Assembly: GCA_024645085.1 (NCBI GenBank)
Contig: JAHEGN010000002.1
Coordinates: forward strand, 1-64,000
Direction: 5' to 3'
DNA length: 64,000 nucleotides
Source of the DNA: Rhodobiaceae bacterium
GTDB lineage: Bacteria > Pseudomonadota > Alphaproteobacteria > RS24
Position 1 is the stretch's first letter. Each line of letters opens with the position of its first letter. Below the pieces are notes generated by a model. It saw only the letters and a list, made by a program, of their open reading frames with translations, was not told where the DNA came from and did not search any database. Shown piece after piece: positions 53,318-54,593 of the stretch. The translations under genes and the position numbers were made by a program.

Positions 53318-54169
53318 ATGAAAAACATCATACCGACTGGACGAATCCCGCCATCGGATTATCTCTGTGAGATGATGGAGAAACTGCAAAAAATTTTCGC
53401 CGACCGCGCCGCCCTGATTGATTATGTGCGCGCCCTTTCACCTGAACTTGCCGATGCGCCTGTCAGCCAGACCGTTGGCGGTCGCCAAGCTGGGGCCGCT
53501 CGTTTAGCCCAGCTCGACGCGCAAAGCTATGGCAGCAGCCGTAATTATCTCGACGGGGCGGTGTCTTATTTATCGCCCTATATTCGCCACGGCATTGTGA
53601 CGCTGAATGAGACCCGCAATCTGGCGATTCAGCAGGGCGCACCTAAACAGGTCGAAAAATTCGTGCAAGAGCTCGCTTGGCGCGATTTTTGGCAGCGAAT
53701 TTATCATCAGTCGCCAGCCAAAATCTGGCGCGATATTGAGCCTTATAAAACCGGCTATTCGGCCGATCATTATGCCACCGAGCTGCCCGAGGATATCCGC
53801 CAAGCGCGCACTCCAAGCGCGGCGATGAATTTTTTCATCAAACAATTAATCGACACTGGCTATTTGCACAATCACGCGCGCATGTATTTGGCCGCTTATA
53901 TTGTCCATTGGCGCCATATCGCTTGGCAGGCTGGGGCGCAGTTTTTCCTTACTCACTTGTTAGATGGTGACCCGGCCAGCAATAATCTGTCTTTTCAATG
54001 GGTGGCCAGCACATTTTCCAATAAGCCCTATTTTTTCAACCTTGAGAATTTACAAAAATTTGCCGGTTCCGTGGCCCCTTGCGCGGCCCATGACAATGTC
54101 GATTTCGACGATAGTTATGACGCTCTGGCAGCCAGATTATTTCCCCATAGTGAGGCCCTGAATGGCTGA
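53318..54169 (+). CDS. Photolyase/cryptochrome FAD-binding domain protein (no antenna domain)
   Basis: This 283-residue protein contains only the helical FAD-binding half of photolyases: GGRQAGAARLAQLD, SRNYLDGAVSYLSPYIRHGI, the flavin-pocket ELAWRDFWQRIY, TGYLHNHARMYLAAYIVHW and HLLDGDPASNNLSFQWVASTF. The usual N-terminal alpha/beta domain is missing. It is encoded as a separate gene just downstream with an 8-nt overlap. Only two cysteines remain, so no iron-sulfur cluster is expected. It probably acts in light-dependent DNA repair or blue-light sensing. The start is uncertain (53318, or 53372 without the first 18 residues). Confidence 0.85.
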   Translation: MKNIIPTGRIPPSDYLCEMMEKLQKIFADRAALIDYVRALSPELADAPVSQTVGGRQAGAARLAQLDAQSYGSSRNYLDGAVSYLSPYIRHGIVTLNETRNLAIQQGAPKQVEKFVQELAWRDFWQRIYHQSPAKIWRDIEPYKTGYSADHYATELPEDIRQARTPSAAMNFFIKQLIDTGYLHNHARMYLAAYIVHWRHIAWQAGAQFFLTHLLDGDPASNNLSFQWVASTFSNKPYFFNLENLQKFAGSVAPCAAHDNVDFDDSYDALAARLFPHSEALNG

Positions 54170-54593
54170 TTTAATCTGGCTTCACGAAGATATGCTACGC
54201 GCCACCCATCCGGTATTTGCGCATGCCAGCGATGACGCAACGGCCATCTTCATCTGGGATGACGCCTATTTTGATGTGGCTGGCTATAGTCTGAAACGGC
54301 GGGTGTTTTTATATGAAACCATATGCCAATTGCCGGTCGATATTTATCGCGGCGATATGATGGCATTGCTTGGGCAATTGGCTGAAGCGGCGGCGGCGCA
54401 GAAAATTTACACCGGCACCAGCCCTAATCCCGCATTGCAAAAAATCATGCAAGAGCTTAGCGCCACTCATGAGCTGACGCAGATTGACGATGAGCCATTT
54501 GTGACCCTTGATGGGCCAGCTGATTTGAAAAGATTTTTCCGCTATTGGAACCAAGCGCGCAAAACCGCCTTTGACGTCGACGGGGCTAATTAA
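54162..54593 (+). CDS. Photolyase N-terminal alpha/beta domain protein
   Basis: This 143-residue protein resembles the N-terminal domain of photolyases: MADLIWLHEDMLRATHPVF in place of the usual 'WFR.DLR..DN.AL', IFIWDDAYF, YSLKRRVFLYETI, YRGDMMALLGQLAEAA and an IYTGTSPNPALQKIM strand. It ends with DLKRFFRYWNQARKTAF. It overlaps the FAD-domain gene by 8 nt, so the two products are likely made together and form a two-chain enzyme. Whether it still binds an antenna cofactor cannot be seen. Confidence 0.72.
   Translation: MADLIWLHEDMLRATHPVFAHASDDATAIFIWDDAYFDVAGYSLKRRVFLYETICQLPVDIYRGDMMALLGQLAEAAAAQKIYTGTSPNPALQKIMQELSATHELTQIDDEPFVTLDGPADLKRFFRYWNQARKTAFDVDGAN

Follow-up and report, generated by a model that had tools for sequence, protein, structure and literature searches.

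NewPHL photolyases, among them Phr7 of Prochlorococcus, were reportedly characterized by Emmerich et al. in 2020 and are said to carry out single-stranded DNA-specific CPD repair as one chain with a C-terminal Z-domain. Short photolyase-like proteins (SPL) are said to have been described by Xu et al. in 2021, and some SPL members possess four Fe-S cysteines. SPLs are described, secondhand, as lacking the α/β domain (PMC9649867, PMC9178010). In marine Synechococcus, Haney et al. 2022 (PMC9426592) described phr4/phr5, in which the FAD gene comes first. Disruption of phr4/phr5 lowered survival after UV-C, an effect reported for RS9916 only, and phr4/phr5 in E. coli conferred UV-C protection with no significant difference between light and dark (PMC9426592). 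On the basis of the Fe-S cysteines, those authors expected the enzyme to have (6-4) activity, and they left undecided whether two chains or a single frameshifted chain are made (PMC9426592).

The window analysed here, a 64,000-nt stretch of a Rhodobiaceae bacterium contig, contains two genes, ORF1 and ORF2, in the same arrangement. As with Phr4/Phr5 and the fused Phr6 of Synechococcus/Cyanobium (PMC9426592), to which they are homologous and with which they share a clade, a FAD-domain gene is followed by an adjacent α/β-domain gene. The initial annotation knew of no worked-out function for the two-gene form; the swapped layout itself is already known, having been published as phr4/phr5 together with survival data (PMC9426592). 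Phr4 possesses four Fe-S cysteines and W382, whereas the window's clade lacks both the cysteine set and the Trp, and the +1-frame, 8-nt overlap at the window junction is unlike Phr4/Phr5. We have filed the pair as a variant, rather than as Phr4/Phr5 proper, because the cysteines are missing despite the same architecture.

In NewPHL, as in the pair, the FAD domain precedes the second domain; the HNHARM motif is common to both, with the NewPHL His at the position of class I R342, and the tree places NewPHL as sister to the FAD chain, with weak support. However, NewPHL is one chain, whereas the window has two ORFs and a FAD domain that lies outside the NewPHL clade. SPLs are described as FAD-domain-only chains resembling class I/III. 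ORF1 taken as a single chain would fit this description, but SPLs are said to be without an α/β domain, whereas in the window the next gene encodes one. The class I CPD photolyase PhrB of E. coli (PDB 1dnp) has both domains and the CPD-contacting residues in common with the pair, but it is one chain in the opposite order, with R342 where the pair has His, and W382 is present. PF04244 and the Fe-S cysteine set, the marks of FeS-BCP/prokaryotic (6-4) photolyases, are both absent from ORF1 and ORF2.

Domain identity and boundaries of ORF1 and ORF2

The two genes are:

53375..54169, + strand: ORF1, photolyase FAD (catalytic) domain chain (PF03441 match, class I photolyases in the PDB, frame closed upstream in the nearest relatives)
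54162..54593, + strand: ORF2, photolyase N-terminal-type α/β domain chain, 143 aa (family profile, HHalign, AF2, Foldseek)

The only Pfam match of ORF1 was PF03441 (E = 5.5e-21), and in the PDB it matched class I photolyases (E = 9e-19), the aligned part being their FAD half; by sequence, ORF1 is a photolyase FAD domain. Its open frame extends upstream to 53318, where the initial annotation had placed the start, and past it. The start is probably at 53372 or 53375 (M19 or M20, giving 265 or 264 aa), because in the nearest relatives (L002 and L031, 93% identical) a stop closes the frame just before the equivalent Met, and other orthologs also begin there. The stretch of open frame upstream of M19/M20 is probably untranslated.

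As a single query, ORF2 had no match in Pfam, NCBIfam or the PDB. When its family of 56 members was searched, PF00875 was matched by 30 (best 6e-6), and N-terminal domains from ordinary class I photolyases aligned with the entire length of the family (HHalign 97.6%, E = 2.6e-12). An AF2 model (pLDDT 91.3) has a five-stranded α/β fold, and the top 50 Foldseek matches of the model in the PDB are all photolyases or cryptochromes. The ORF2 family and its predicted fold are those of a photolyase α/β domain. Homology between ORF2 and the Z-domain at the C-terminus of NewPHL is possible at the sequence level, with HHalign giving 48% for the deeper sets, compared with the value above for class I N-domains, and 4% for a shallow ORF2 alignment against few NewPHL C-termini. 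Mixed alignments of fragments, in which ORF2 was misplaced, were left out of the modelling. The anatomy given in the initial annotation, FAD half first and α/β half second, was correct. The Pfam assignments that it proposed to check were recovered directly for ORF1 and at the level of the family for ORF2, and neither fold nor profile placed the second protein in an unrelated family.

Linkage of the pair and structure of the junction

For three genome pairs, dN/dS was 0.06-0.10 for ORF1 and 0.13-0.19 for ORF2, the faster-evolving gene; purifying selection acts on both. In a survey of 385 alphaproteobacterial genomes, ORF1-type genes (E ≤ 4.2e-100; the next matches, starting with NewPHL-like single chains, were at 8e-50 and weaker) and ORF2 were found in exactly the same 10 genomes, and were adjacent in 10/10. 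Within the window's family, the pair is carried by 11 genomes, side by side in every one, and no genome of the family has either gene alone. Three loci without ORF2 are on contigs that end before ORF2 would come. The pairing is not due to chance, since low dN/dS in both genes is accompanied by co-occurrence and adjacency.

We consider that the pair probably forms a two-chain photolyase, consisting of the ORF1 catalytic domain and a separately started ORF2 α/β domain. An alternative is that ORF1 acts alone as a short FAD-only photolyase, ORF2 being an accessory or antenna subunit that is dispensable for catalysis. This would fit with the faster evolution of ORF2 and with the description, given secondhand in PMC9649867, of SPLs without an α/β domain as CPD repair enzymes. 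It is nevertheless unlikely, as ORF2 is present wherever ORF1 is in the genomes sampled, is constrained and has been repeatedly fused to it, and the apparent exceptions merely run off the contig.

The features of the junction are:

54162..54169, + strand: 8-nt overlap, ATGGCTGA (ORF2 start / ORF1 stop), with ORF2 in the +1 frame relative to ORF1
54152..54155, + strand: GAGG, a Shine-Dalgarno-like motif 6 nt before the ORF2 ATG (from the sequence)

The two same-strand genes thus overlap by 8 nt, as the initial annotation had noted. Among 79 two-gene loci, ORF1 and ORF2 are separated by -8 to +30 nt; the second gene is in the +1 frame in 16, in the +2 frame in 53 and in frame 0 behind a stop in 10. 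A ribosome-binding-like motif precedes ORF2 at 28 of the 79 junctions, compared with 12.6 expected from shuffles and 7% of sequence windows inside ORF1; in the window's clade it is found at 8/12 loci.

These data bear on what Haney et al. asked about phr4/phr5, namely whether programmed frameshifting at the junction generates one fused polypeptide. Single-gene natural fusions with the same domain order are known, and the spacing was noted to be constant in their own Synechococcus strains (PMC9426592); however, gaps already range from -4 to +30 nt within the marine Synechococcus loci of our sample, all three frames are used across the 79 loci, and ribosome-binding-like motifs are enriched before ORF2. 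Programmed frameshifting therefore has little to recommend it, and a conserved frameshift product is unlikely because the junction varies in both length and frame. Two separate, docking chains are the best reading of the sequence, in line with the two-chain enzyme suggested by the initial annotation.

In the two-chain reading, ORF1 would provide the helical FAD-binding catalytic domain. Ribosomes would enter separately at ORF2, in coupling with the end of ORF1, and the ORF2 chain would provide the α/β domain that forms the front half of ordinary photolyases.

Active site, clade-specific losses and likely function

The residues of E. coli photolyase that contact the CPD and FAD are conserved in the two-gene and fused rows: E274, W277, R278, N341, N378 and W384 (E. 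coli numbers) are kept in 89-90 of 90 rows, and M345 in 86. The likely function, judged from these residues, is that of a CPD photolyase, presumably light dependent, and its substrate is perhaps single-stranded DNA. In the window's family, 11 genomes contain the pair, seven contain a NewPHL-like gene and none contains both, which is consistent with the two doing the same job, one replacing the other. The exclusivity tracks genus lines, and relatedness may explain it. The sister genera in which a NewPHL-like single-chain photolyase takes the place of the pair are represented by G004, G005, G012, G014, G015, G017 and G020 (L012-L018).

Of the four Fe-S cysteine columns, one has Cys in the window, and the set is missing from the window's clade. 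All four cysteines are found in the cyanobacterial, acidobacterial, betaproteobacterial and some of the alphaproteobacterial members; SAR116 and gammaproteobacterial relatives mostly have one left. The absence reported in the initial annotation is thus accurate for the window but does not extend to the two-gene family as a whole: on the aligned sequences, it is a trait of the window's part of the tree. A second set of changes affects the redox aromatics:

53993..53995, + strand: codon of F226, the equivalent of E. coli W382, the proximal Trp of the photoreduction chain (from the alignment)

At the W382 position, Phe is found in 17/17 members of the window's clade and Trp in 73/73 of the other two-gene or fused members. 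A W-to-F change at residue 209 of P0001 is likewise found in 17/17 members of the clade, compared with 3/73 elsewhere, and a Y-to-F change at residue 248 in 15/17, compared with 4/73. Together, the three aromatic-to-Phe changes would interrupt the usual photoreduction chain. In the window's clade, FAD would probably arrive already reduced, because the usual Trp photoreduction route is interrupted. This branch constitutes a natural test of the need for photoreduction in vivo.

Near confinement of these three substitutions to the window's clade could also be expected of a cryptochrome-like light or redox sensor without repair activity, but every lesion-contacting residue checked is retained, and we regard a sensor role as improbable. 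That the pair is a (6-4) photolyase, as Haney et al. proposed for Synechococcus Phr4/Phr5 from the Fe-S cysteines and UV-C phenotypes (PMC9426592), is very improbable for the window, where the set of four cysteines is missing across the clade, the active site has the N341/M345-type CPD residues, compared with His-His (by eye) at the matching motif of the genome's own FeS-BCP, and that FeS-BCP probably covers (6-4) repair already.

Two other photolyase genes were observed in the same genome. Contig 46 (L165) encodes a separate FeS-BCP-type (6-4) photolyase (PF04244, E = 7.4e-82), and contig 24 (L164), at about position 92692, contains the beginning of a class I-type photolyase (IIVWFRQDLRLDDN...), truncated by the contig end. 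With both of these present, the pair is an additional family member in the genome.

Distribution, natural fusions and phylogeny

A scan of GTDB genomes detected 80 loci. They belong to Proteobacteria, Cyanobacteria and Acidobacteria, and also to MAGs under other labels, some of which look misbinned. Pair-carrying MAGs L061, L063 and L090 are titled Rickettsia typhi, Klebsiella pneumoniae and Blastopirellula; these titles are probably binning or naming errors, and L090 falls within Synechococcus in the tree. With the Deinococcus plasmids, the two-gene or fused enzyme is known from four well-supported phyla. Adjacency is therefore not confined to the window's lineage, a possibility considered in the initial annotation, but is found in at least four phyla, accompanied by natural fusions. 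No relative of the pair was detected in the viral contigs searched, and matches in phage collections, at about 30% identity, resemble ordinary photolyases.

Fused forms with the same domain order as the pair occur in Synechococcus lacustris, an Acidobacteriaceae MAG, a Methylophilaceae MAG and three Deinococcus plasmids; the Deinococcus sp. QL22 plasmid still has two genes, with a 4-nt overlap. At least four changes between the split and fused states are needed on the tree, and their direction, fusion or fission, is assigned by parsimony. The model of the Acidobacteriaceae natural fusion (L079; pLDDT 84.8, pTM 0.86) has a FAD part that matches photolyases, and suggests, for this fusion rather than for the window's own chains, that the two halves pack together; docking of the window's chains would be analogous.

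In the tree, the Synechococcus WH7803 and RCC307 loci (L085 and L097) are in the same starred clade as the window's FAD chain (support 96/97 and 99/97). NewPHL forms one side of a starred branch (100/99), with no two-gene row on the NewPHL side. For the relative age of the two-gene clade and NewPHL, support is 53/87 and 93/92, with long branches.

Relative to the open-licence papers covered by our literature search, three things are new: the occurrence across Proteobacteria, Acidobacteria and Deinococcus, the evidence from the junctions, and a clade without the four Fe-S cysteines that has three W/Y-to-F changes, one of them at the proximal electron-transfer Trp. On the question left by Haney et al., the variation of the junction across 79 loci favours two chains over a single frameshifted one. 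A broader and more tentative proposal is that the "short photolyases" put forward as one-domain ancestors of the whole family may not be one-domain enzymes, the missing α/β half being encoded next door; that inverted single chains may have arisen when this two-gene enzyme was repeatedly fused; and that the PS1 branch may have a dismantled electron-transfer chain, its FAD being reduced by the cell without reliance on photoactivation. Whether FAD-only short photolyases are the ancestral form, as has been proposed, can now be tested, since apparent members have their second half encoded by an adjacent gene annotated "hypothetical protein". On the Deinococcus sp. QL22 plasmid, the α/β chain so annotated is at L169 3112-3633, and it is fused in three congeners.
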